DNA from: Ignavibacteria bacterium
GTDB taxonomy: Bacteria; Bacteroidota; Ignavibacteria; Ch128b
DNA length: 64,000 nt
Direction of reading: 5' to 3'
Assembly: GCA_013177855.1 (NCBI GenBank)
Contig: JABLYA010000001.1
Span: 2,188,983-2,252,982, forward strand
The position numbers and the translations under genes are program-made. The notes beneath the pieces are model-generated. The model searched no databases. It was not told the origin of the DNA and saw only the letters and a program-made list of their open reading frames with translations. Positions 412 through 13,764 of the stretch are shown here, one piece after another (position 1 is the stretch's first letter; each line of letters begins with the position of its first letter).

Positions 412-801
412 CTAATCTCCTTCTATTAATCCATCGGCAAAACGTTTTAACCAAGAAAGGAATGATAAAACTTCTGAAGTAATTTTTCTATATTCTACAG
501 AAGAGATTTGAGAAATCGCAAACACCAATTCATCAAATGATCTTACTTTATCTGAATTAATCATATTTCGATAATTTAACCAATTATAAATGTCTCTACC
601 AATTGAATTCCAGAATTTCCCTTCTTCTTTGCTCCTTTTTGAATACATAAATGCAAATGCAGCACCTAGTCCATTGGTCTTTATAAGCATTGGTAACTTC
701 TTAACATAACTTTTATATTCTTTTCCCAATACAGAAGCATTTCTAGCACAATTAAAAGCGAATTCTATTTTTATTTGATCTGTTGTTCTTAGAAATGACA
801 T
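412..801 (-). CDS. cmr5: Type III-B CRISPR small subunit Cmr5
   Basis: A 129-residue, mostly helical, lysine-rich protein that starts [19 protein letters not shown]. Its length and its position between cmr4 and cmr6 match the small subunit Cmr5, which lines the inner filament of the Cmr complex and contacts the target RNA. The motif [15 protein letters not shown] resembles the conserved Cmr5 core in which a glycine follows a helix (family knowledge). The gene starts one base after the cmr4 stop. No catalytic role is expected. The family is assigned from weak motifs and strong context. Confidence 0.88.
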
Positions 802-802
802 C

Positions 803-1840
803 TCATTTTCCTCCTTTATCGTTATTTTGGTTTATTTCATTAATTTTAATTATACCCTTACCAATTGTAGCGTTACCCCCTAGTTGCATTACTTCTGGAA
901 GGTTTTTCACAAAAAATTCCATTACAAGTTCTTCTTCTTTTTTCCCATTTTGGTTAAAAATACCTTTTTTCTTTTCCTCTTTTTGAAAAATGGGGGTACT
1001 GAAAACTAAAAAATACATTATTGTTTCTGGTGGAAGATATTCTTCGTTAAACAATGCACCCTGCGCTACCGTACCTGTTAGATTATCAATCTTAGTTCTA
1101 GTAATTATTTCAGTAAATTGATTTACAAAATCTCTAAAATCATCATCATTTAAAACTACTACACGTTCTTTTAATTCATTCATTTCTCTAAATTTTGATA
1201 ATATAGGATCAATATTTAAATTTTGTTGTTCGTTAAATCTGTATTCTTCTAAAACAACTGATGTATTGTTTATGGATATTTTGTTATTAGCGTAAGTAAT
1301 ACATTGCCCGATATCGACACTTGGAATATTTAATCTGAAATCTTTGTAACAAAGCTTCAGATCCTCAACGTATCTATTTAATACATATGGACAGGTTATC
1401 CAAGCGAAGATACCTTTTGCTGATCTTACTGGGAAAAATAAAATGCGAGCATCAGAAAAAGCAAGAGCTCCTGAAAATTCGGAATCCTCTTCAAATTCCT
1501 TTTTTATTAGTTCGTCAAGATTATCTTCATCATATCCAAATAGTAATTGAATTGAATAATCGAAACTCAATTTTAAACGTTTTTTATCATTGATATTCTC
1601 AAATCCAATTTTAGAAGAATCGTTCTTTGATATTATTTCTAAGAACTCAACTTTTTGTTGTTCTAGTTTATTTTCAAAAGCTTCTCTTATAGCTCCTTTA
1701 AGCGAAGAGCTCTCAACTTTTGGGAATGATGTATGTTTTTCCCTTTGAATGGGTAAATCCACCATTCCTAAATCATTACCACTTCCACAGTGGAGTGATG
1801 AAATTGTACGAAAATAAAATGGTTTTGCAATTCTAAACAT
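803..1840 (-). CDS. cmr4: Type III-B CRISPR backbone RAMP protein Cmr4
   Basis: A 345-residue RAMP protein. The N-terminus has SSLHCGSGNDLGMVDLPIQR and then a SSSLKGAIREAF stretch, the hallmark of Cmr4, whose repeated copies form the backbone and cut target RNA at 6-nt steps. Asp28 sits in the segment where the family's catalytic aspartate lies (inferred from alignment by eye). A glycine-rich loop GGNATIGKGII near the C-terminus completes the RAMP fold. It overlaps the upstream CARF gene by 8 bases, which points to translational coupling. Confidence 0.93.
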   Translation of the reverse strand: MFRIAKPFYFRTISSLHCGSGNDLGMVDLPIQREKHTSFPKVESSSLKGAIREAFENKLEQQKVEFLEIISKNDSSKIGFENINDKKRLKLSFDYSIQLLFGYDEDNLDELIKKEFEEDSEFSGALAFSDARILFFPVRSAKGIFAWITCPYVLNRYVEDLKLCYKDFRLNIPSVDIGQCITYANNKISINNTSVVLEEYRFNEQQNLNIDPILSKFREMNELKERVVVLNDDDFRDFVNQFTEIITRTKIDNLTGTVAQGALFNEEYLPPETIMYFLVFSTPIFQKEEKKKGIFNQNGKKEEELVMEFFVKNLPEVMQLGGNATIGKGIIKINEINQNNDKGGK

Positions 1841-2960
1841 TTTTCACCTCAATTTTAGTCTTTAAAGATTTCTGGATTATATCGTCTTTGGAGAAACTTC
1901 TTTTAATAAACTCTTTTGCTAATTCTTCGCTTTGAAAAGTTTTATAAATATATATTTTTCTATGACTCTCAAAGTAATAAATTCTATTAGGGTTATCTCC
2001 ATCGTCGTAAACAAAATGCTCACCTTTTTGTTCTGTTTTGTTTTTTCTAATAATATCATTATGAAATTTTGTCGCCAATATTCTTTTAACATTTGGTTGG
2101 TTTTCGATTTCCTCTAACACTTCACGGGGTGCATAAAAAGTAAAAAATTTAGATTGATAATGTCTCCAATAAATCAAACCTAGTGGGTCAAGACTTAACA
2201 AAGAAGTTCCATCGTTCTCTATTTCATAAAGCAAATCAGAGGGAAAATCATCAAATAGATTATTCTCCTTAATGTATTTATCTTTGGGTTTTTCCACGCT
2301 TTCAGAAAGTTCAAGGAAAACCTCATAGTATTTTTCAAACAAATTATAATCAATTGTAATGGGGGACTGGGGAATATTTATTAAAAATTCACTCTCCTCA
2401 AAAATATAATATAATGGTACCTTATTAATCTGACCCCAAATAGTCAAGTAAGGTATAACACCTTTGAACCCACCAGTTATATTAAGTATTTTATCGGCAT
2501 AAAACCCTCCACAGATTGCCTCTAATTTGTAAATTAATTGTGATAGGCCTTCATTAACAAATTTTTGATCGAAGGGTATAAGATTTTTTATATAATCAAT
2601 CTTTACCTCAACTACGAAGTTTGGATATTTTGTATTTCTGTCGGTTAATATTTCTGAATAAATTTCGGCAGCTAAATTTGATAATATTGAATCGGAACAT
2701 ATAAAAGTAATTATAATCTGCTCTTCTTTGAATTTCAGAAATAATTTTTCTAAGCTTTTTAATTCAGCTGAATCTCTTTTATTTTGTGCAAACGGTAATA
2801 CCAACTCTTTTATTTTTCTTTTCTCATCATAAAAATTCTTACCACTATTATTACTATAAGTTTCTTTCTCAAGTAAATCATAATAGGATTTAATATTGTT
2901 ATTAAACTTAAGATAATTTGTAAATAAACTTGTGCCTACTGTTGTAATTATATTTTTCAT
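1833..2960 (-). CDS. CARF-domain CRISPR ancillary effector (APE2256-type), possible RelE-like toxin tail
   Basis: A 375-residue protein. The N-terminus MKNIITTVGTSLFTNYL and the later NITGGFKGVIPYLTI (around residue 160) are the two signature elements of the APE2256-type CARF family, which senses cyclic oligoadenylate made by Cas10. After about residue 260 comes a separate domain with REVLEEIENQPNVKRILATK and, nearer the end, NRIYYFESHRKIYIYKTF. The latter resembles the C-terminal strands of RelE/HigB ribonucleases, so the protein may be a CARF-RelE effector like the described Cami1. A short R-x6-H (RILATKFH) could instead hint at a HEPN-like site. The gene overlaps cmr3 by 4 and cmr4 by 8 bases and is therefore embedded in the effector operon. 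The CARF call is firm; the nature of the effector domain is inference. Confidence 0.8.
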   Translation of the reverse strand: MKNIITTVGTSLFTNYLKFNNNIKSYYDLLEKETYSNNSGKNFYDEKRKIKELVLPFAQNKRDSAELKSLEKLFLKFKEEQIIITFICSDSILSNLAAEIYSEILTDRNTKYPNFVVEVKIDYIKNLIPFDQKFVNEGLSQLIYKLEAICGGFYADKILNITGGFKGVIPYLTIWGQINKVPLYYIFEESEFLINIPQSPITIDYNLFEKYYEVFLELSESVEKPKDKYIKENNLFDDFPSDLLYEIENDGTSLLSLDPLGLIYWRHYQSKFFTFYAPREVLEEIENQPNVKRILATKFHNDIIRKNKTEQKGEHFVYDDGDNPNRIYYFESHRKIYIYKTFQSEELAKEFIKRSFSKDDIIQKSLKTKIEVKNV

Positions 2961-4045
2961 TTTATTCTCCCTATTAGACAGATGCCATATCCTTCTTTTG
3001 AATTGAAATCTGAAATAGATTTACCGTTTAATAAATTATAAATTTCAGAAAATCTACATGATTTTGATTTTAATAAGTAAATAGAGCCACTAGGGACGGC
3101 TTTTCTCATTACTTTGGGCACTTTTTTTGCCATATCGAAACCGCCAATTAAAATTGGTTTACCAATTGAGGCAGATACTAATTCAATCTCAAGTTCTCTT
3201 AATAATGGATGATCATTAAAATCTGGTTTCCAACCATACTTAAAGAATGCTGGGGTTAATAAATAAAGTAAAAATTCCTTATCGGTTATACTATTAAGTT
3301 CATCCGTTGAAAAAAATTCATATTTATTTTCTATATTCGAATATTTGGCTGGTTTATTTTCGGCACCTAGTCTTAGTAAACCAAAATTAGAAAGTTTTAA
3401 ACCTTCAAATTCTACTATTAGAGAAAATGTATTCATTTGTTTACCAAATTCTTTTTTTTCCGAAAGTCTTTTTAATCCAAGTCGGTATAATTTGCCTTCA
3501 CTTGATGAACGTGTTAAATTCTCTCTACCAATACCAACTTTAGGTTCTGAAATTACAAAATCTGAGATTCTAGAATATGGAAAATTATTTCTTTCCCCAT
3601 TTAAGTAACGTTTCAGAGAACTTTGAAATATTATACCATCATCAATCGATTCAACCTCTTCATTAGTAATCATACATAGTAGTTTTAATATTCTTGAATT
3701 AGAATTTAAATTACTTAAAACATTATTATCTACAACCTGTAATCTTTGAGCAAATTTTTCTTTTTTGTTTTTTATTCGAACACAATCTTTGGGAATAGGG
3801 AAATAAAAGTCATTACCTAAAGAAAAATAAATTGATTTAATAATTAAATTTTTTGTAGGATCGTTTTCTGAATTTGCAAGTTTAAATTCAGCAGGGTGCT
3901 CGCTAAAATAAGCAGATCTTAAAGCTCCAAATATTACTGAGGGTGGAGGTGGAAAAATACCATCTGCCCAAGTTTCTTCTCCCATAGAAAATGGTTTCCC
4001 ATCTTTAAAAAATAATGTATCAATTGCTTCAATTTTAATTTTCAT
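2957..4045 (-). CDS. cmr3: Type III-B CRISPR protein Cmr3
   Basis: A 362-residue RAMP protein beginning MKIKIEAIDTLFFKDGKPF, followed by GEETWADGIFPPPPSVIFGA, which is the typical N-terminal signature of Cmr3. With Cmr2 this subunit forms the foot of the complex and holds the crRNA 5' handle. The C-terminal SDFNSKEGYGICLIGRIK includes the glycine-containing RAMP end. It overlaps cmr2 by 11 bases and the CARF gene by 4 bases, so it is part of a tightly coupled operon. Confidence 0.93.
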   Translation of the reverse strand: MKIKIEAIDTLFFKDGKPFSMGEETWADGIFPPPPSVIFGALRSAYFSEHPAEFKLANSENDPTKNLIIKSIYFSLGNDFYFPIPKDCVRIKNKKEKFAQRLQVVDNNVLSNLNSNSRILKLLCMITNEEVESIDDGIIFQSSLKRYLNGERNNFPYSRISDFVISEPKVGIGRENLTRSSSEGKLYRLGLKRLSEKKEFGKQMNTFSLIVEFEGLKLSNFGLLRLGAENKPAKYSNIENKYEFFSTDELNSITDKEFLLYLLTPAFFKYGWKPDFNDHPLLRELEIELVSASIGKPILIGGFDMAKKVPKVMRKAVPSGSIYLLKSKSCRFSEIYNLLNGKSISDFNSKEGYGICLIGRIK

Positions 4046-5831
4046 TTTTTACTCCATTAAGGTGTCTACTTATAAATTCAGCTATAAATAATGCTGATAT
4101 AAGATTTTCCAAATTCAGTTTTTCATATAAAGAAATTATACATCCCATAGTATTATGAATTTTTTCTAATTTTCTCTTTATAAATTGCTCTTTACTTTCA
4201 TTTATTTTTCTTTGAGGCTTGAATGAACGAATTAATAATCTTTCTAATTCTGTCTTTAGAATTTCTGATCGTAACGTAAGTCCATAAAATTCTTTTGATA
4301 GTTGATTAATAAATGAATTCGAGAATATTTCGTGGGATAAATCATAAGTGATATTTGCTAAAGTATCTATATTTTCTGTTCCATTCATTCCCCATTTTAG
4401 AATGGCTTTATTTATTTCTCCAGAATGTTTCATAACAGCAATAGCAAAAGCATTTTTGTCGTCGTCAATGTCTTTAGCCTCTTTTTCAAGTTTACGTGCC
4501 CAAGATAAAACTTCTGATAAAGGCCATTTATAATGTGCTATTATAATACCCGCCGAGAAAGTTAAATTTTTGTTTTCATTTTTAAATTCTGAAATACCAT
4601 TATTGATAATATCATCGAATTTAATTCTTAATTCCCTTAAAACATCAAAGAGATAATTTAAATTGATAAAAGCTAAAAAATCTTCACCACCCGCATATAC
4701 TACTTTACCTTTTTCTTCAGTGACAATATTTCGAGTTTCATATGCGAATTCGTTAAGTAATTGTGTCAATTTTTTATGAAAATCCAACAAATTAACATCT
4801 TCTCTTAAATTTGAACCCGAGAGCCACTTACCCATACTATCACCATCAAACATTACAACAGAATAATACGGAGTAATTTTGAGATTTTCTTCTTTGGCAA
4901 TTTTCTTTAATTGAGCTTGAATTGGTTTAGCCTCTTCTAAAAGTTTTACTTGTATATTTTGTTTTTTAAAGTAAGCTTTCTTTAGGTTTTCTTCATATAA
5001 TAATTGATAATCAAAGTAATCATCGAAAATATTTTTCATATAGTCTATTTGTTTTTTAGTTTTTTCATTACTGTCAAGATGCTTTAATGCAATATGTGCT
5101 GTTGAAGGAAACTCCTCAATTAAATAAAATCTTTTTGTAAAGCAAACCGCACAAAGTCCCTCGCTGGAATCAAAAGGATAATTTACTTCAATTATTGAAT
5201 TATTAAAATCTTCTATTGTGATTTTTTCTTGTGTACTTAAAAGTTTCCAATTGGGTTTTAATTGAAATTTTGATTTATTGCCCTTTTGGCAAAATATCAT
5301 ATTACGTTCACCACAGATAGAGCATTTCCTTCCTGTTTCTTCAACTTGTTCAAATTCTCTAACATTTTTGATTGCTCCAAGAAGTGATTCAATTTCTTTA
5401 TATCGTTTTTTATATTGTTCATCTGAAAAGGGTAATGCAACCCAATGTATTAATAAATGATTTTTTATCTGGTTATAAAAATTTGCGGGTAATTTTTCTT
5501 TATAGATTTTAGCTTCTTTGACAGCATTAATTGAAAATTCTTCAAATTTTTTTAATATTTGGTTCTTAAATTTATGCCCCAAATTTTTAACATCTTGGTC
5601 ATCATTCCCTTCTAAAATTGCAATGAACCTATTGGGATAAGATTTTTCTTTGTCATTAGTCTGCTTATCAAAAAAAGGGAAGATTATTTCCTTTGGATTG
5701 ATCTGACTTATTGCGAATTCAATCAAATCAGAGAGAATTCTACTGCTGTTATATAAATCTCTAGTTTTTCTCGCTTGAGCAATAAATGATTGAACCGGAC
5801 TGATTGTGAATAGGAATAAGTAATTATTCAT
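4035..5831 (-). CDS. cmr2: Type III-B CRISPR large subunit Cmr2 (Cas10), HD-less, GGED palm motif
   Basis: A 598-residue Cas10. It opens directly with the segment TISPVQSFIAQARKTRDLYN, which in HD-containing family members follows the N-terminal HD nuclease domain, so the HD domain is absent. A zinc ribbon is visible as CSICGER (about residue 170) paired with CAVCFTK (about 228). The first palm contains MFDGDSMGKWLSG. The second palm has YAGGEDFLAF near residue 381, where most active Cas10 proteins have GGDD. The CARF protein in the operon implies that cyclic oligoadenylate is still made; the acidic Glu-Asp pair makes that possible but does not prove it. The gene overlaps cmr1 by 4 bases. Confidence 0.94.
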   Translation of the reverse strand: MNNYLFLFTISPVQSFIAQARKTRDLYNSSRILSDLIEFAISQINPKEIIFPFFDKQTNDKEKSYPNRFIAILEGNDDQDVKNLGHKFKNQILKKFEEFSINAVKEAKIYKEKLPANFYNQIKNHLLIHWVALPFSDEQYKKRYKEIESLLGAIKNVREFEQVEETGRKCSICGERNMIFCQKGNKSKFQLKPNWKLLSTQEKITIEDFNNSIIEVNYPFDSSEGLCAVCFTKRFYLIEEFPSTAHIALKHLDSNEKTKKQIDYMKNIFDDYFDYQLLYEENLKKAYFKKQNIQVKLLEEAKPIQAQLKKIAKEENLKITPYYSVVMFDGDSMGKWLSGSNLREDVNLLDFHKKLTQLLNEFAYETRNIVTEEKGKVVYAGGEDFLAFINLNYLFDVLRELRIKFDDIINNGISEFKNENKNLTFSAGIIIAHYKWPLSEVLSWARKLEKEAKDIDDDKNAFAIAVMKHSGEINKAILKWGMNGTENIDTLANITYDLSHEIFSNSFINQLSKEFYGLTLRSEILKTELERLLIRSFKPQRKINESKEQFIKRKLEKIHNTMGCIISLYEKLNLENLISALFIAEFISRHLNGVKNEN

Positions 5832-6973
5832 ATTTTAACCTCAATGATATTAGGAAATTCACTAAGAAAGCTATGAATAATTTCATTTGACGGTACATTG
5901 ACCCAAATTGGTCTTTTATTATTATTTGAAGTATCTTTTATTATTATTTTATCCCCCTTAGGAAGTAGTTCACGTTCAAAAAATACAATCATTGGATAAT
6001 AATTAATTGTATTATTTTTTACAGCTAAGACTTTAAAAATTAATGGTGATGCACAACGTTCGCGTTCTTTTTTCATATGACCTTCAATCGTAACAGATTT
6101 GTTATTTAATGATCTATATCTATAATTTATTGGTAAACCAAAAGCTGCTTTTTCTATAGTATCAAAATTATTACCAGAAATTAAATAATTTTTTATGTTA
6201 GAATAATCAGGTTCTCTTCTTGACCTAAATTCTTTATATTGATTTCCCATAATTTGTAAACATTCTTCAGCGGAAGTTTCAGGATCAGAAATAAATACTT
6301 TAAAAGAAGATAAATTAGAATATGTATTATTTTTCAAATTATTTGAATTTTTTATAGTTATTTGACTTACAACTGTTTTTATGAATTCAACAAGCTCCAT
6401 ATTGTTTTCAATATCAATTAAGAGCTTTAAACTTGGAACTATTTTATTATCATCTAATATTTTTGTTATTATGAAATTTCCTCCACCTCGTCTTGATCTT
6501 GAGCCCAATGCTCCAAAGATTGATAAAATATAAAAAGAATTAGCAGCTTCTACTAGAACTTCTTTCTGATATGAACTTATTTCAATGGAGAAAAAAATCT
6601 TAGAGAAATAGGGACGTTGATTATCTTTTTGCATAAAAGTAGAGTATAATAAATAAGCCATTCCTTGGTATTCTTTTCGAATACTATTATTTTTTGAATC
6701 CCATATTTTATTTCTTAACGATGCTTCAAGTTTATAATTGTTCACTGAAACTTTTAAGTTAAATTTACTTCTTCCTTCATTTTCCCCGCTTCCACCAAAA
6801 ATTGCAGCCTCTCTATTCTTTAATTCATGCAATTGTAAATGTGCATTTGTTGCTCTCCACCAAAAACGCATAGCGCCTTTTATACTAGGAGGTCTTAATT
6901 CAGGTGTTTTTCCATCAACTCCTGCTAAAAACATAGGGGTAATGGTTTCACATTCAAAAGTAATTTTATACAT
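5828..6973 (-). CDS. cmr1: Type III-B CRISPR RAMP protein Cmr1
   Basis: A 381-residue RAMP protein that starts MYKITFECETITPMFLAG, with PELRPPSIKGAMRFWWRA close behind, the characteristic Cmr1 signature. FGGSGENEGRS and the arginine/glycine-rich GALGSRSRRGGGNF are further RAMP loops. Cmr1 caps the distal end of the effector near the crRNA 3' end. It is the first cmr gene of the operon, 76 bases downstream of the cas6 stop, and overlaps cmr2 by 4 bases. Confidence 0.93.
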   Translation of the reverse strand: MYKITFECETITPMFLAGVDGKTPELRPPSIKGAMRFWWRATNAHLQLHELKNREAAIFGGSGENEGRSKFNLKVSVNNYKLEASLRNKIWDSKNNSIRKEYQGMAYLLYSTFMQKDNQRPYFSKIFFSIEISSYQKEVLVEAANSFYILSIFGALGSRSRRGGGNFIITKILDDNKIVPSLKLLIDIENNMELVEFIKTVVSQITIKNSNNLKNNTYSNLSSFKVFISDPETSAEECLQIMGNQYKEFRSRREPDYSNIKNYLISGNNFDTIEKAAFGLPINYRYRSLNNKSVTIEGHMKKERERCASPLIFKVLAVKNNTINYYPMIVFFERELLPKGDKIIIKDTSNNNKRPIWVNVPSNEIIHSFLSEFPNIIEVKI

Positions 6974-7049
6974 AAATAGTACCTATTTTGGTTTTTCTCT
7001 TTATTTCAAACAGATATAATTATAAATTCTTTAATATTAATTTTATACA

Positions 7050-7925
7050 TTAATGTTTTTCTAATTGCTTGGTATTCTGAATATTAAAAATTTTTTCTTT
7101 TAATTGATCATATGTCTTTCCATTCACCTCCACAAAACCAAAGCCCATTGAATTTTTGCTTCCGAAACCACATTCGTAGCCGACTTTAATTAATTCTGGG
7201 TTTGTTCTGATCTTGAAATCACACATTATCCCTTTTATTTTACTTTCATTCTTAGAACCTTCAGCAATTGTTATAAGTTTTGATACAACTCCTTTTTTCT
7301 TTTCGATATATTCCTTATCAAATTCAAAGTAAAAATCATCAACTTTAATATCCTGTTTATAAATGAGTCTATATTTTCTTACCAGATTTTGTAATAGATT
7401 TTCTTCAATGCCTGGATCATTTATTCTTAGATAGTAAGGACTTAATCTTCCATTCCTTAATACAAGAGTTGAAAGAACCAGCGGAGAGAGCAGTCGGAAA
7501 TTCATTTCGTTAGTTATTTCTGGATCAGGGATTAATTCGACATGCTTAATCACAAATCGACTAACATACTGCTTGTGTACGATGTGAACTTTTTGCTTTT
7601 CAAAAGTTCCAATGACAAAATTTTTTATAAATGACTCGACAAGCGGTGAGGAGATATAAAGGTCTATAAATGGTGAAAGAAGTTCAAAATGATTGCCTTC
7701 CAATCGATTGTTGTTTAAGATTTGATACTTTCTAAGTTTAACAGCAAAAGTGAAAAGCTTGAAATTCTTATTTTCAATTTTGTAACCATTGTTGTGTAGA
7801 AATTCAGAGAATTCGGGTGAGCCAAATTTTAAGAGGAGATATATCGCAGCGGAAAATTGATAATTATAGTTGATTGGAATTACCGCTGGTTTCGATACAC
7901 ACTGCAATGTAAGTTTTAGTCTCAT
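7050..7925 (-). CDS. cas6: CRISPR pre-crRNA endoribonuclease Cas6
   Basis: A 291-residue protein starting MRLKLTLQCVSKPAVIPIN. The C-terminus holds the Cas6 glycine-rich loop, visible as GYECGFGSKNSMGFGFVEV. Cas6 cleaves CRISPR repeat RNA to leave an 8-nt 5' handle that Cmr3/Cmr2 bind. It is probably the first gene of the cas operon. Its upstream flank (7926-8180) carries one repeat-like sequence but no array, so the crRNAs must come from an array elsewhere in the genome if the system works. The catalytic histidine was not assigned. Confidence 0.9.
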   Translation of the reverse strand: MRLKLTLQCVSKPAVIPINYNYQFSAAIYLLLKFGSPEFSEFLHNNGYKIENKNFKLFTFAVKLRKYQILNNNRLEGNHFELLSPFIDLYISSPLVESFIKNFVIGTFEKQKVHIVHKQYVSRFVIKHVELIPDPEITNEMNFRLLSPLVLSTLVLRNGRLSPYYLRINDPGIEENLLQNLVRKYRLIYKQDIKVDDFYFEFDKEYIEKKKGVVSKLITIAEGSKNESKIKGIMCDFKIRTNPELIKVGYECGFGSKNSMGFGFVEVNGKTYDQLKEKIFNIQNTKQLEKH

Positions 7926-8035
7926 ATAATATATAGAGTTTATTAACTTTCATTTTTCCAAAATGCAGTTGGTGTATCGTGTCGTGATAATATTAATCGT
8001 TTAGCTAAGCATTAACATTTTTTCAAACAATTAAC

Positions 8036-8065
8036 ACTGTGCGAAACTTAAACAAGGATTGAAAG
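8036..8065 (+). repeat. Solitary CRISPR-repeat-like sequence upstream of cas6
   Basis: About 30 bases ending in AAACAAGGATTGAAAG. The last eight bases, ATTGAAAG, are identical to the crRNA 5' handle used by many type III systems, and the length fits a repeat. No second copy or spacer follows; the rest of the 255-base gap between cas6 and the helicase fragment shows no recognisable feature. It could be the relic of a lost array, an orphan repeat, or chance in AT-rich DNA. Confidence 0.35.
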
Positions 8066-8180
8066 ATTTACAAGCATTTTGATGTAGGAAATTACTTACT
8101 AAAAATATTTTATTCGAATAAAAGGGTGGAGAGAAAAATTATAATTCACGCAAATTGTTCGTGGAATATGTTTAGAGATT

Positions 8181-9102
8181 TTATTCTTCAATTTCAAAAT
8201 GCGATTTTATCTTTTCTAAAAATGGACTCATTGAATTGTTTTTCGTAATAAAGAATAGTCTTTTCTTTGCTCTTGTCATAGCAACGTAGAGGATTCTCGC
8301 ATCTTCATTTGAATTATTAGAATTTTGGTATCGAAAAACATCTCTGTTACATTCAGGAATAATCACATTTGTAAATTCTAAACCTTTAGCTCTATGAATT
8401 GTGGAGATCACTACTTTTTCATCGCCTATGACGAGATCAGGTTCTTTTAATGTCTCGTAAAGTGGAACATGTTTTCTTAAGTTTTTCTCTAGAGTATTTT
8501 CTTGACACTTTAAAGACAAATGTCTAAACAATTTTTTAAGATTAACTCCGTCTTCATCTTTAATATCATATTTGTAATTCGTTACCAGATAAATTAAAAA
8601 TTCAGAGATAATATCAACTATGTTTTTAGAAGTATTAAAATAGAATTTTACTTTTGACCATAATGGATAAAATCCATTAATAAAATTCCTTAAAATTTTT
8701 TGATTATCTGTAAAAATTTTTTCCTGAACTTGAATTTTATCCTTAAGGTAGATAGATAAATATTTAACTAATTCAAATGTAGCGATTACATCATCATAAG
8801 CATTGTGAGTATTTTGAGCTTTAAGATTGAACTCTTCGATTAATGATGCAAGACTATATGATTTAAGGGTTGGAAAAATTCTTCTTGTAATAGTTATTGT
8901 ATCAAAGGAAGCGGTAAATTTATTTTCATTAATAGCTATTCCATTTCTTCTACAATTTTCAATAAGCATTCTTAAATCAAAGGGAAGATTATGGGCTAAG
9001 ATAACAGCGTCGTTTATAAAATCTAAGAATTCTGCCAAAACCTTTTTAGGATCTTCACCATTTTGATTTAAATAATCATTTGTAATTCCATGAATTTTAC
9101 AC
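8181..9102 (-). CDS. UvrD-type helicase with nested DnaQ-like exonuclease, C-terminal part after a frameshift
   Basis: This frame continues the 9068-10621 gene after a one-base shift in the A5 run at 9103-9107. Just downstream of the shift the reading resumes as KIHGITNDYLNQNGEDPKKV, the middle of a DnaQ/DEDDh exonuclease, then LAHNLPFDLRML and HNAYDDVIATFELVKYL (exonuclease motifs II and III). The helicase core then returns with ISTIHRAKGLEFTNVIIPEC and ARILYVAMTRAKKRLFF (helicase motifs V and VI). The first in-frame ATG, at 9038, lies inside the exonuclease domain, so this half is unlikely to be an independent gene. Confidence 0.8.
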
Positions 9103-10621
9103 TTTTTGATAAATCTTTGTTTGTCTTTAAATAACGATTAAACTCTCTTTTCCTTTGACCTTTTTCTATTTCTATTGCCGCAATTTGAATAATGTCATCA
9201 ATTTCGGGATTTTTTCCTGTTGTTTCTGTATCGAATAAAATAATTTTATTGTTTTTAAGTATATCATTAAAAAGTTTTAATTCTAATTCAAAAAAATTTT
9301 CTTTTAGAAAATCTGTGGGATATAGTCCAGAGTTATAAAGTTTATTCACAAAATTTCTGGCTTCTTTAAAAGTGTTAATTTTTCCAAAATGTTTTAAAAT
9401 TCTTGCCCAGTTTAGTCTTGAATAATCATCAATCAAACAATTCAAAAAAGCCATCACATCTTTTATTACGGCAGTTCTAAATAAATCAAAATGTGAAACT
9501 TTGAAATGATCTATACTTTGCTGATTTAATAGCCTGCTAAAATTTTTTACACTATTGTTAGTTCTTACCAGAATTGCTGTTTGAGATCTTTCTTCCTTTA
9601 TTAAATCATTAATCAATTCACTGATTGTTTTATCCAGAAGAGATGGGTCAGCTACTTTAAATATTTTTAATGTTCCAGGTGGTTTTGACTGCGACTGAAA
9701 AGAAACTGGTTCCTGGTTCCATTGTGGGTTAAGATAATTCCTTGCAAAATCATTGTAAACTTTAAGCAGATAGGAAGGTGATCTAAAATTCAGACTTAAT
9801 GTGTGAATCTGAAAACTCTTTTTAATATCCTCAATGTTACTTAAATCGGCTCCCAGGAATGAAAAAATTGATTGCTCAGGATCCCCGAAGTAAACTAAGT
9901 GACAATCGGGTGCAGAAATTAATCTTATAATTTCAAAATGAAGAGCATTTAAATCCTGAATCTCGTCAACTTGAATCCATGAGTATTTCTGAAATTTGAT
10001 CCTGTTATCTTTGATCAGATGAAGGTAAGTCAAAGTTAAAAGATCGTCAAAATCAAGAAAGAGATTTTCCTCTTTTATTTTTTCATAATCCGAACAGATT
10101 TTTTTAATAAGTTGATCTCCAAACATGTAATAAAGTATATCTTTAGGCTTTAGAACTAAATTTTGTGGAAAGCCGAATTTTGTTTGTTTTAGATAAGAGT
10201 TTAATCGTATTAAATCATCTATGCGAGCATCAGGAGATATAGAATTTAGTCTTATATTATTTTCTTCTAAGATTTCTTTAATTAAAAGTGAGGAATCTTC
10301 TTCGTCAAGTAGAATTGTCGCATTTGGTATGAGTTTGTTTTTATTGAGAAAGTTAAGGCAAAATCTGTGAATATTTCCGATGAAAACTTTACAATCAGGG
10401 GAGTATCTTTCAACTCTTTCCTTCATTGCTTTTGCAGCACGATTTGTAAAAGTAAGACAAACCATCTCTTCGGGATTGATTCCATTTTCTATTGCAAAAA
10501 GAATTCTATGCGAAAGTAATTCTGTTTTCCCAGTCCCGGGAGGTGCCAGAACTAAGTGCTTCCCCTTTGCCAGATGAACAATGTTAATTTGTTCCTGTGA
10601 TAAATTAATTTGATTATCCAA
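9068..10621 (-). CDS. UvrD-type helicase with nested DnaQ-like exonuclease, N-terminal part before a frameshift
   Basis: A 517-residue open frame with superfamily 1A helicase motifs: APPGTGKTELLS (Walker A, residues 26-37), VCLTFTNRAAKAMKERV, WIQVDEIQDLNALH (Walker B, around 218), YFGDPEQSIFSFLGAD and LNFRSPSYLL. Near residue 463 a second enzyme starts, ILFDTETTGKNPEIDDIIQIA, the first motif of a DnaQ-like 3'-5' exonuclease, and the frame stops within that domain. The remaining exonuclease and helicase motifs follow in the -1 frame (8181-9102). If joined, one protein of roughly 810 residues results, with an exonuclease inserted between helicase motif IV and motifs V-VI. It lies next to the Cmr operon on the same strand. 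Confidence 0.85.
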   Translation of the reverse strand: MDNQINLSQEQINIVHLAKGKHLVLAPPGTGKTELLSHRILFAIENGINPEEMVCLTFTNRAAKAMKERVERYSPDCKVFIGNIHRFCLNFLNKNKLIPNATILLDEEDSSLLIKEILEENNIRLNSISPDARIDDLIRLNSYLKQTKFGFPQNLVLKPKDILYYMFGDQLIKKICSDYEKIKEENLFLDFDDLLTLTYLHLIKDNRIKFQKYSWIQVDEIQDLNALHFEIIRLISAPDCHLVYFGDPEQSIFSFLGADLSNIEDIKKSFQIHTLSLNFRSPSYLLKVYNDFARNYLNPQWNQEPVSFQSQSKPPGTLKIFKVADPSLLDKTISELINDLIKEERSQTAILVRTNNSVKNFSRLLNQQSIDHFKVSHFDLFRTAVIKDVMAFLNCLIDDYSRLNWARILKHFGKINTFKEARNFVNKLYNSGLYPTDFLKENFFELELKLFNDILKNNKIILFDTETTGKNPEIDDIIQIAAIEIEKGQRKREFNRYLKTNKDLSKSVKFMELQMII

Positions 10622-10767
10622 TGTAAAACCAAATAGTAATTTGTAACTTTTGAAATATAAATTTATTTGCCTTCAAATTCCCAATAATCTATCATTCTAA
10701 AATTAGAAAGTTTTGCTTGAAAATTTCTAAATCTTTTATAAGTTAGAACTAAAATTAAGGTTATGAA

Positions 10768-13764
10768 ATGAGAGTGAATAAAGATTTCAAGGTAAAAGCT
10801 CAATATGGAAGTCGATTTAGAGAATTTCAGAATTTGATGAAGATTAAGATACGGGATATTTTACTTGTCTCGAGTTTGTATGACTATTATTTGTTTGAAG
10901 AAGATGGAAGACTTTATGAACAAATTCGCGAGGAATACAGAGCTTTAAATTTAAGTCACGCACCTGAAATTACTCATGTAACCACTGCACACGAAGCTTT
11001 TGAATTTTTAAGTGATCAGAAGAAAAGATTTGATCTGGTTATCACAACATTACACATCGAAGATATGTCAGTAATTAAGTTTGTTCAAAATTTAAAATCA
11101 CAATGTCCAAACTTACCAGTTATTTTACTTGCTTATGATAATCGTGAACTAAAAGAGATATCGAAGACTTATGACCTTTCGATTTTTGAAAAAGTTTTTA
11201 TCTGGCAGGGGGATTATCGATTACTCATTGCAATTATAAAATATCTTGAAGACAAACTGAATGTTGAAAACGATACGAAAACGGTTGGAGTTCAATCAAT
11301 CATTCTTGTTGAAGATAATGTAAAGTTTTACTCGAGTTATCTGCCAATTATTTACACAGAAATTTTCACTCAATCACAACGATTAATTTCAGAAGGCTTA
11401 AATATTTCTCATAAATATCTAAGGATGCGGGCAAGACCAAAAATTTTGCTTTGCTCAACTTATGAAGAAGCATGGGATTATTTCACCAAATATCAAGAAT
11501 ATATTCTTGGAGTTATTTCCGATATTAATTTTAGAAGAAACGGGGAAAAGGATCCTGAAGCTGGTTTGAAGTTAGCAGCTGAAATTAAAAGGCAGCAATC
11601 CGATATTCCAATACTTCTTCAATCAAGCAATATTGAATTTGCCGAAAAGGCTCGTGCTGTTCAGGCGTTTTTTATTCAAAAAGGTTCACCGACTTTGTTA
11701 AAGCAGGTTCGAGATTTTATTAAAGATAATCTTGGTTTTGGTGATTTTATTTTTAGAACTCTAGATGGAAGAGAAGTTGCAAGAGCTCGTAACTTAATCG
11801 AGCTCGAGGAAGTTTTGAAAACAGTTCCAGAAGAAAGTATCATCTATCATGCATCGAGAAATCATTTCTCAAACTGGTTAAAAGCACGGACTGAATTCTG
11901 GTTAGCCCATAAATTAAGACCAAGAAGGGTCAGTGACTATCCAACCATTGAAGCACTACGACAGGATTTAATCAATTCTATTCGTGAATATCGTGAGATG
12001 AGATTGAGAGGAATAGTCAGTGAGTTTGATAAAAATACTTTTGATATTAATCACAGCTTTGCACGAATTGGTTCTGGTTCACTTGGCGGGAAAGCGAGAG
12101 GATTAGGGTTTCTTAATAGTTTAATTGTCAACTATGGAATTAGAGATCAGTTTGAAAAAGTTACGATTTATGTCCCTTCAGGAGTTGTACTTGCAACGGA
12201 TATTTTTGATCAATTTATTAATGATAATGAGCTCTTCAATTTTGCGCTTCAGTGTGAAGATGATAATTTGATAAAAGAGAGATTCTTCAATGCTCAATAT
12301 TTCCCTCAAGAAGTTGTCAATAAATTGAGAGACTTTCTTGAATTAGTTAAAACTCCGCTTGCAATTCGGTCTTCGAGTCTTTTAGAAGATTCACAATTTC
12401 AGCCTCTTGCAGGAGTTTATGCAACTGTAATGATACCAAATAATAATCCTGACATTGAAATTAGATTAAAAGAATTACTTGATGCAATTAAACTTGTCTA
12501 CGCTTCGATGTTTTTCCAGCACAGTAAAAATTATATGAAAGCAACAGCCTATCGACTTGAAGAAGAAAAAATGGCAGTGGTCATTCAAAGAGTAGTCGGG
12601 TGTGAGCGTAATGGAAGATTTTATCCAGATTTTTCGGGAGTTGCCAAATCTTATAATTTTTATCCTCTGCCGCCGCAAAAAACAACCGATGGGATTGCTC
12701 AGGTTGCTTTGGGTCTCGGCAAAATTGTTGTTGAGGGTGGAAACACAGTTAAATTCTGCCCAAAATATCCTAAACATTTAATTCAATTTTATTCAACGAA
12801 AGAAACTGTTCGAACTTCCCAGCAATATTTTTATGCAATCGATTTGAATGAAGAATTTCGTTCTGTAAAACACTCACCAGAAGAGTTTGTTAAATCATTT
12901 GATCTTTCAATTGCCGAAATTGATGGAACGCTTTACCTTCTTGGTTCGACTTATTCCCCAGAAAACGATGCAATCTACGATGGAATTTCCCGAAGCGGAA
13001 CCCGAATTGTTACTTTTGCACCAATACTTAAGCATTCAGTTTTTCCATTACCAGAAATTCTTGATTTACTTTTGGAAATCTGCTCATGGGCACTTGGTGC
13101 GCCAGTCGAAATTGAATTTGCATGTAATTTGAGCTCAAACAATTGTCCGAGAGAGTTTGCTTTGTTGCAGATGAGACCATTTATAGTAAGTCATGAAATG
13201 GAAGAAGTTGAATTTGAAATTAATGATACTGAAAATTTTGTTTGTTATTCACCTCAAGTTTTAGGCAATGGAATTTATAGAGACTTGAAAGATGTGGTTG
13301 TTGTAGATATAAATAAATATGATCGTGGTAAAAGTCGGGAAGTTGTTTCAGAAATTGAATACTTCAATAAAAAACTATTAAAAGAAAATCGTCATTATAT
13401 TTTGATTGGAGTGGGAAGATGGGGAAGTTTAGATCCCTGGCTTGGGATACCAGTCACCTGGGATCAAATTGGAATGGCTTCAATCATTGTTGAAGCAAGT
13501 TTTAAAGATTTGCACATAACTCCATCGCAGGGTTCACATTTCTTTCAAAATATTACTTCATTTAGAATCGGTTATTTCACAATTGATCCTTATCACAATA
13601 TAGGTTTTATTGATTGGGACTGGCTGCTTTCCATTCCACCAGCAGAGGAATTAAGTTTTTGCAGGCATTTAAGATTTGAAAATGAATTAATTGTCAAAAT
13701 TAATGGTCATAAGACAAGTGGAGTTATTTACAAACCAGATGCAGTAATTTCCAATCATAATTGA
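10768..13764 (+). CDS. Receiver-like/PEP-synthase ATP-grasp fusion protein
   Basis: A 998-residue protein. Residues of about 25-160 and 170-320 look like two response-regulator receiver domains (IRDILLVSSLYDYYLF..., QSIILVEDNVKFYSSYL with GVISDINFRR as the phospho-acceptor region). From about 430 the pyruvate-phosphate dikinase/PEP synthase ATP-binding domain follows: GSGSLGGKARGLGFL, YVPSGVVLATDIFDQF, LAIRSSSLLEDSQFQPLAGV. The phosphohistidine domain and the C-terminal PEP-binding barrel of true PEP synthases are not seen, so ordinary gluconeogenic activity is unlikely. It starts after a 146-base gap shared with the divergent helicase gene. Relatives are usually named PEP/pyruvate-binding domain proteins; the function is unknown. 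Confidence 0.75.
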   Translation: MRVNKDFKVKAQYGSRFREFQNLMKIKIRDILLVSSLYDYYLFEEDGRLYEQIREEYRALNLSHAPEITHVTTAHEAFEFLSDQKKRFDLVITTLHIEDMSVIKFVQNLKSQCPNLPVILLAYDNRELKEISKTYDLSIFEKVFIWQGDYRLLIAIIKYLEDKLNVENDTKTVGVQSIILVEDNVKFYSSYLPIIYTEIFTQSQRLISEGLNISHKYLRMRARPKILLCSTYEEAWDYFTKYQEYILGVISDINFRRNGEKDPEAGLKLAAEIKRQQSDIPILLQSSNIEFAEKARAVQAFFIQKGSPTLLKQVRDFIKDNLGFGDFIFRTLDGREVARARNLIELEEVLKTVPEESIIYHASRNHFSNWLKARTEFWLAHKLRPRRVSDYPTIEALRQDLINSIREYREMRLRGIVSEFDKNTFDINHSFARIGSGSLGGKARGLGFLNSLIVNYGIRDQFEKVTIYVPSGVVLATDIFDQFINDNELFNFALQCEDDNLIKERFFNAQYFPQEVVNKLRDFLELVKTPLAIRSSSLLEDSQFQPLAGVYATVMIPNNNPDIEIRLKELLDAIKLVYASMFFQHSKNYMKATAYRLEEEKMAVVIQRVVGCERNGRFYPDFSGVAKSYNFYPLPPQKTTDGIAQVALGLGKIVVEGGNTVKFCPKYPKHLIQFYSTKETVRTSQQYFYAIDLNEEFRSVKHSPEEFVKSFDLSIAEIDGTLYLLGSTYSPENDAIYDGISRSGTRIVTFAPILKHSVFPLPEILDLLLEICSWALGAPVEIEFACNLSSNNCPREFALLQMRPFIVSHEMEEVEFEINDTENFVCYSPQVLGNGIYRDLKDVVVVDINKYDRGKSREVVSEIEYFNKKLLKENRHYILIGVGRWGSLDPWLGIPVTWDQIGMASIIVEASFKDLHITPSQGSHFFQNITSFRIGYFTIDPYHNIGFIDWDWLLSIPPAEELSFCRHLRFENELIVKINGHKTSGVIYKPDAVISNHN

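Follow-up and report, generated by a model that had tools for sequence, protein, structure and literature searches.

PcrA, Rep and UvrD share a set of helicase motifs and a 1A-1B-2A-2B subdomain plan and, as SF1A helicases, travel 3'-5' on single strands. An SF1A-like motor is joined to a nuclease in one chain in AddA and RecB, where the nuclease is C-terminal and of the RecB type. The 2B subdomain of SF1A helicases is described, in the sections available from two reports, as autoinhibitory and as swiveling (PMC13238157, PMC6158625). Further, a DEDD 3'-5' exonuclease and a helicase are combined in one chain in the ExoDinG proteins, such as DinG of Bacillus subtilis (PMC11981726, PMC12525004, both available as excerpts), and according to the second of these excerpts exonuclease-bearing DinG acts on forked DNA, which it degrades starting at the 3' end, and the ATPase of B. 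subtilis DinG did not stimulate degradation (PMC12525004). GajB of Gabija has a UvrD-like fold and complexes with GajA, and the four subdomains named for it in the available portion of its description include no exonuclease (PMC10681800).

The gene described here belongs to an Ignavibacteria bacterium and lies within a 64,000-nucleotide stretch of its genome, referred to throughout as the window. Present as one copy in the genome, it spans positions 8181-10621 of the reverse strand as two long overlapping reading frames, P0001 and P0002 (Table 1). The homology to relatives swaps frame at a run of five A residues, from ...YLKTNKDLS in the first frame to ...KIHGITND in the other, and the spacing across the join gives a gapless match to the intact relatives L171 (LKTQKDLTDSRKVHNI) and L173 (LKTDKSLEQTVKIHGI). 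A preliminary description of this stretch had reported a nested helicase gene broken by a single base in the A5 run, with the -1 frame resuming at KIHGITND, an observation that is confirmed by this switch in homology. The A5 break is the only frame change listed within the gene, and the 310 codons downstream stay open. The locus very probably encodes a patchily inherited, single-copy, single-chain helicase-nuclease with an exonuclease placed in 2B, interrupted by an unprogrammed one-base break.

Table 1. Features of the helicase-exonuclease locus in window coordinates; motif names are those that we take to apply.
Feature	Position	Strand	Details
P0001, upstream fragment	9068..10621	-	517 aa; TTG start at 10621, stop 9070-9068; helicase motifs I-IV, start of 2B, Exo I (FDTETTG); UvrD-helicase E 1e-47
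P0002, downstream fragment	8181..9113	-	310 aa; -1 frame, open from 9113, stop 8183-8181; Exo II/III, remaining 2B, helicase motifs V and VI; RNase_T E 3.5e-16, UvrD_C E 4.4e-22
A5 run, coding strand	9103..9107	-	homologous frame changes by one base here
UvrD/REP helicase N-terminal domain (1A/1B)	9809..10603	-	Pfam; P0001 residues 7-271
UvrD_C region (2A with 2B)	8241..9802	-	Pfam; interrupted by exonuclease and frame break; nesting as in intact relatives
DEDDh exonuclease, first part	9104..9238	-	RNase_T profile 2-51 of 164; P0001 residues 462-506
DEDDh exonuclease, second part	8769..9098	-	RNase_T profile 55-163; P0002 residues 6-115
Gap between helicase gene and cas6	7926..8180	.	255 bases; both flanking genes (-)

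Domain matches on both fragments are far beyond chance. Besides the UvrD-helicase domain (PF00580), P0001 matches RNase_T (E 4.7e-7) and the first part of UvrD_C (PF13361), which matches on both fragments, while P0002 holds the rest of UvrD_C, the remaining RNase_T match and UvrD_C_2. The SF1A helicase motifs are legible in the translations (APPGTGKT, DEIQD, TIHRAKGLEF and VAMTRAK), as are the exonuclease residues (DTET in P0001, HNLPFD and HNAYDD in P0002). The gene has the UvrD N- and C-terminal domains and motifs I-VI of UvrD-like SF1A helicases, as first proposed, and the Exo I DxE, Exo II D and Exo III HxxxxD of DEDDh exonucleases are found across the two fragments. The frame break thus falls inside the exonuclease, and the exonuclease is placed between helicase motif IV and motifs V/VI, under the motif names used here; the nested DnaQ-like exonuclease of the preliminary description was recovered as an RNase_T match within UvrD_C, with the same arrangement in the intact relatives.

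The position of the insert was compared with solved structures through L171, the closest relative found, which is an 823-aa single frame with 44% identity over the downstream part and has PcrA (1pjr) and Rep (1uaa) as its best solved sequence matches. Residues 8-405 and 684-817 of L171 align with PcrA 12-417 and 511-644, respectively, with the exonuclease in between, and residues 12-405 and 731-813 align with Rep 7-408 and 551-632. Because of these gaps around the exonuclease, the insert appears to fall in the 2B stretch, using boundaries that we take to be those of the PcrA and Rep 2B subdomains. A DEDDh exonuclease of ~160 residues nested at 2B, under these presumed boundaries, sets the gene apart from PcrA, Rep and UvrD. 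An AlphaFold2 model of an intact relative from Segatella, L067 (pLDDT 86.2, pTM 0.84), has UvrD structures as its top Foldseek rows and superimposes on Deinococcus radiodurans UvrD with Z 37.5 and an rmsd of 4.2 over 602 of 642 residues. AddA (Z 29.7) and RecB (Z 25.1) are also in the fold list of the model, lower than UvrD; their nuclease, as a C-terminal RecB-type domain, differs from the nested DEDDh domain of this gene.

The collected loci were scored with a profile constructed from six intact relatives, and 25 of them were chosen as family members by score. Among the best 80 of 352 candidates in the search of genome contigs, 14 are family members and many of the others match the helicase end only. 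Matches were present in 1156 plasmid records, eight of which cover at least 80%, and four of these eight were taken; none of the 29 phage records with a match has a single place covering 80% of the query, and the search of viral contigs with P0002 gave zero relatives confirmed by tblastn. The 25 relatives are therefore a sample and not a census, and do not include the full-length matches G399:C143 and G177:C10. The tree was used for its nearest rows only, since its row L075, whose branch is very long, represents an incorrect ORF; the window protein branches from an open fork together with L171-L174 and P0003, an intact relative from Chryseobacterium.

The nested fusion is genuine: all 25 relatives examined are open across the break site, and 17 are complete single genes with the continuous reading frame that the window gene lacks. 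The remaining eight comprise four cut by contig ends (L070, L072, L172 and L174), three distant relatives (L077, L099 and L100) and one broken elsewhere. RNase_T is enclosed by one UvrD_C match in eight of the nine relatives searched with Pfam, and in the ninth, L077, UvrD_C occurs in two stretches with the best one after RNase_T. The proposal of one fused gene instead of two is upheld by the relatives, and an arrangement of two separate genes, in which a helicase and an exonuclease-helicase fragment act as subunits, is extremely improbable: two long frames do exist and a TTG start is available at 9038, but the second frame would begin past Exo I, leaving no active exonuclease, and both parts are joined in the 25 relatives examined. 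The literature and family searches returned no paper or curated family describing the nested helicase-exonuclease architecture.

Two of these groups have features of their own. The distant relatives, from Planctomycetota, Gemmatimonadetes and Poribacteria records, have open frames of 998-1074 aa that align poorly at the break site, and the exonuclease is further along the chain (Pfam, L077 and L100); this longer form perhaps represents a second insertion event. The copy on a Bacteroides fragilis plasmid (L064:6239-8996; plasmid CP103159) is annotated as two overlapping genes and is broken upstream of the exonuclease, unlike the break site in the window.

Three causes had been offered for the break, namely a sequencing error, a recent mutation and -1 slippage on the A run. 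Slippage would yield a truncated and a full-length product through programmed -1 frameshifting, and some features are in its favor, including the homologous frame reached by a -1 shift, the possible re-pairing of a single P-site tRNA-Lys with the A5 run, a T-TTA-AAG heptamer located inside the frame overlap, 22 bases before the junction TCA codon, and A5/A6 runs in the aligned stretch of five of the 25 relatives (L062, L063, L065, L070 and L171). The junction codons TCA AAA AGT, however, do not form a tandem slippery heptamer, and eleven canonical-type heptamers occur in the first frame of this AT-rich gene. Slippage at T-TTA-AAG would alter residues in which the protein agrees with its relatives, and the downstream RNA folds are nothing unusual against shuffles (z 0.36, 128 of 200 as good; z -0.30, 71 of 200). 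The break is absent from all 25 relatives, in the five with A5/A6 runs these lie elsewhere in the aligned stretch and leave the frame uninterrupted, and L100, with an aligned stretch of 146 residues, is the only relative with in-frame canonical-type heptamers there. The junction heptamer, stimulatory structure and conservation that characterize programmed -1 frameshifting were not found, and programmed slippage is very unlikely because there is no signal in the relatives, no junction heptamer and no unusual fold. The sequencing error and the recent mutation both remain of the three causes.

Under a consensus error, the gene would be unbroken in the genome and the A run miscounted in the assembly. 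This is plausible, though it falls short of probable. The site is a homopolymer, the catalytic motifs are present, neither half is clearly decayed and the contig of 2.65 Mb makes a long-read assembly likely. Identity between the window protein and L171 is 52.2% before the break and 43.2% after it, and for the intact pair L171/L173 it is 46.0% before the junction site and 37.1% after. Across four pairs with the window protein the drop after the junction is 9.0, 5.0, 9.8 and 7.6 points, and across five intact pairs it is 6.5, 8.9, 2.9, 7.2 and 2.9 points, with pairs that include L172 based on 185-187 columns before the junction. The downstream half appears to be without clear decay, which suggests that the break is either recent or not real, and the drops over all pairs would also be compatible with a slight relaxation after the break.

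Frame breaks were scanned for in 464 kb, composed of the window and 20 further stretches of the genome. The scan returned 172 adjacent same-strand frame changes, of which 17 have no nearby ATG and, under a strict rule with no nearby start, three: this break, L159:12160 and L158:7815. The break count is a lower bound, as 54 of 60 simulated deletions were called as frame changes and 36 of 60 were flagged by the no-ATG rule, the strict rule being uncalibrated. Against a consensus error, few further breaks occur in this sample, the one other candidate inspected, in L159, is not in a homopolymer, and longer runs in the helicase gene are without a break (six A6, one A7, two T6 and one T7). Of the two readings of the break, consensus error and recent mutation, we lean slightly towards the latter, because of the low rate of frame breaks. 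The site L159:12160 is the second likely frame break in the genome, and the end of the protein there resembles, by reading, a secretion-sorting domain.

The gene was also compared with annotated families and described systems. The best NCBIfam score of P0001 against the PcrA/Rep/UvrD models is 152.8 bits relative to a cut-off of 911.2, and among the NCBIfam models listed at 1e-30 the cut-off was reached by none of the six intact relatives. The combination of exonuclease and helicase in one chain resembles DinG, but DinG has an SF2 motor with an N-terminal exonuclease, and the gene described here has an SF1A motor with a nested exonuclease. PADLOC GajB models match both fragments, and GajB itself differs in the absence of an exonuclease among its named subdomains and in its complex with GajA; PADLOC detected no GajA in either set of ten proteins scanned, from window positions 412-13764 and from L146, the stretch directly before the window, and instead of the neighboring GajA that marks Gabija, the gene is flanked by cas6-cmr genes and a 998-aa protein without a PADLOC match. 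The best PADLOC match of P0001 (1.8e-64) and of the three intact relatives scanned is RTasHel (DRT), for which no paper was found, and no reverse transcriptase was detected among the same two sets of ten proteins. RTasHel was rejected as a family label, as the model is unspecific: at 1e-45 it matches 393 of the 395 genomes in the phylum, it also matches 11 of 14 control genomes, and it gives 400.8 bits to an ordinary helicase from the genome described here.

The gene is adjacent to a type III-B CRISPR locus. The cas6 gene (7050-7925) follows on the same strand 255 bases on, with cmr1, cmr2, cmr3, a CARF-RelE gene, cmr4 and cmr5 beyond it. A dedicated role as a type III-B CRISPR accessory, for example in prespacer trimming or target DNA degradation, would be in keeping with this shared strand and short distance, and with the GC content of the helicase gene (29.0%), near that of the cas genes (28.5%) and below that of the next gene (34.2%); the window from 10768 to 64000 has a GC content of 31.0% and a 19-stretch sample 32.7%. 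The proposal of DnaQ-like domains as prespacer trimmers in other systems, in the excerpt available of that work, also counts in its favor (PMC9048733). Further, the gene at 10768-13764 (+) is 81 and 83% identical in two same-genus genomes, where the genes following it are conserved too and where genes read as a pst-phoU operon occupy the place of the helicase; in this genome the phoU-like gene is found at a distance of 1.3 Mb. The helicase and the CRISPR block thus lie at a synteny break, situated between the helicase and position 10768.

Despite this, a dedicated CRISPR role is improbable, since no cas gene was found near the relatives. Cas1 was on the contig of the gene in none of the six Cas1-bearing relative genomes (seven tested), a count in which contigs are as short as 3.5 kb and Cas1-less loci are missed, and a tblastn search at 1e-4 with the window cas proteins gave no match in the 350 kb around the 25 relatives, with a sensitivity that could miss distant cas proteins. 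Annotated housekeeping genes surround the Prevotella nigrescens copy, and the copies L173, L174, L063 and L079 have, by reading, housekeeping-like neighbors. Among six neighbor proteins at four loci, PADLOC returned two defense matches, a type III restriction enzyme and a TmtA-like protein, both beside the copy on a Chryseobacterium plasmid. At E 1e-20, five of 391 genomes of the class match, including this one, and there is no match in two other genomes of the genus or three of the family. The suggestion that the association with CRISPR could be chance or a defense link stands as to the adjacency to the cas6-cmr genes, but, within the limited sensitivity of these searches, it does not recur near the relatives. 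The CRISPR link looks local and is better explained by chance or by a common accessory island than by a function dedicated to CRISPR, and the gene can be read as accessory, moving in some lineages with islands of different kinds.

Within the gap between the helicase gene and cas6 there is no terminator-like site and one promoter-like site at the cas6 end, and promoter-like sites in the region are no more numerous than in shuffles. A 16-base repeat-like word in the gap (8050-8065) was rejected as a CRISPR repeat, as it differs from the L146 repeat and occurs at chance level (24 shuffles hold at least one). On the other side of the helicase gene, the 998-aa protein encoded at 10768-13764 (+) has response-regulator-like and PEP-synthase-like parts and is present in six of the six family genomes searched, including this one.

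The CRISPR locus has several further components. A CARF7-RelE effector gene (1833-2960, -) lies within the cmr operon between cmr3 and cmr4. Directly before the window, L146:11076-19562 holds an accessory block of the type III-B locus that includes a CARF-PDDEXK nuclease, Csx20, a weak PemK/MazF-like protein, a protein weakly similar to Lon_C, a radical-SAM protein with weak similarity to viperin, a thymidylate-kinase-like protein, and two proteins of 341 and 485 aa without a Pfam or PADLOC match. This composition is reminiscent of the Lon protease-MazF-sigma factor signaling modules of type III systems, together with a viperin-like pair. A CRISPR array is located at L146:6335-7188 (repeat GTCTCAATTCCACTATGGTTCGATTACAAC) and is adjoined by direct repeats spaced ~110 bases apart at L146:5650-6294.

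For the intact enzyme, we infer the activities, polarity and coupling, as we do the cause of the break. The PcrA/Rep-like SF1A motor would move 3'-5', unwinding duplex DNA or displacing proteins. Trimming of 3' ends would fall to the DEDDh exonuclease, which would ride on 2B, normally the controlling element of the motor during unwinding. The likeliest function may be unwinding combined with 3'-end trimming in repair, replication or defense, by a logic comparable to that of exonuclease-bearing DinG. As the DinG ATPase did not stimulate degradation, a coupling of motor and nuclease should not be assumed. It is a tentative proposal, judged somewhat less likely than not, that the intact members constitute an undescribed family of single-chain helicase-nucleases in which the DEDDh exonuclease is carried by the autoinhibitory 2B subdomain of a Rep/PcrA-type motor, so that unwinding and 3'-end trimming are coupled through the swivel of 2B.

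For this organism, the consequence depends on the nature of the break. If the break is real, both halves should be inactive as annotated, since P0001 has neither helicase motifs V/VI nor exonuclease motifs II/III and P0002 has neither Exo I nor the ATP-binding domain. A consensus error would instead mean an intact enzyme. There is nothing unusual in the frame break as such, and it serves as a warning that a single broken gene next to a CRISPR operon tells little of frameshifting or of CRISPR function. Helicase-exonuclease fusions are already known, and the point of interest for the family is the placement of a DEDDh nuclease in the regulatory 2B of an SF1A motor, which would offer a direct test of how 2B movement gates the action of the motor.
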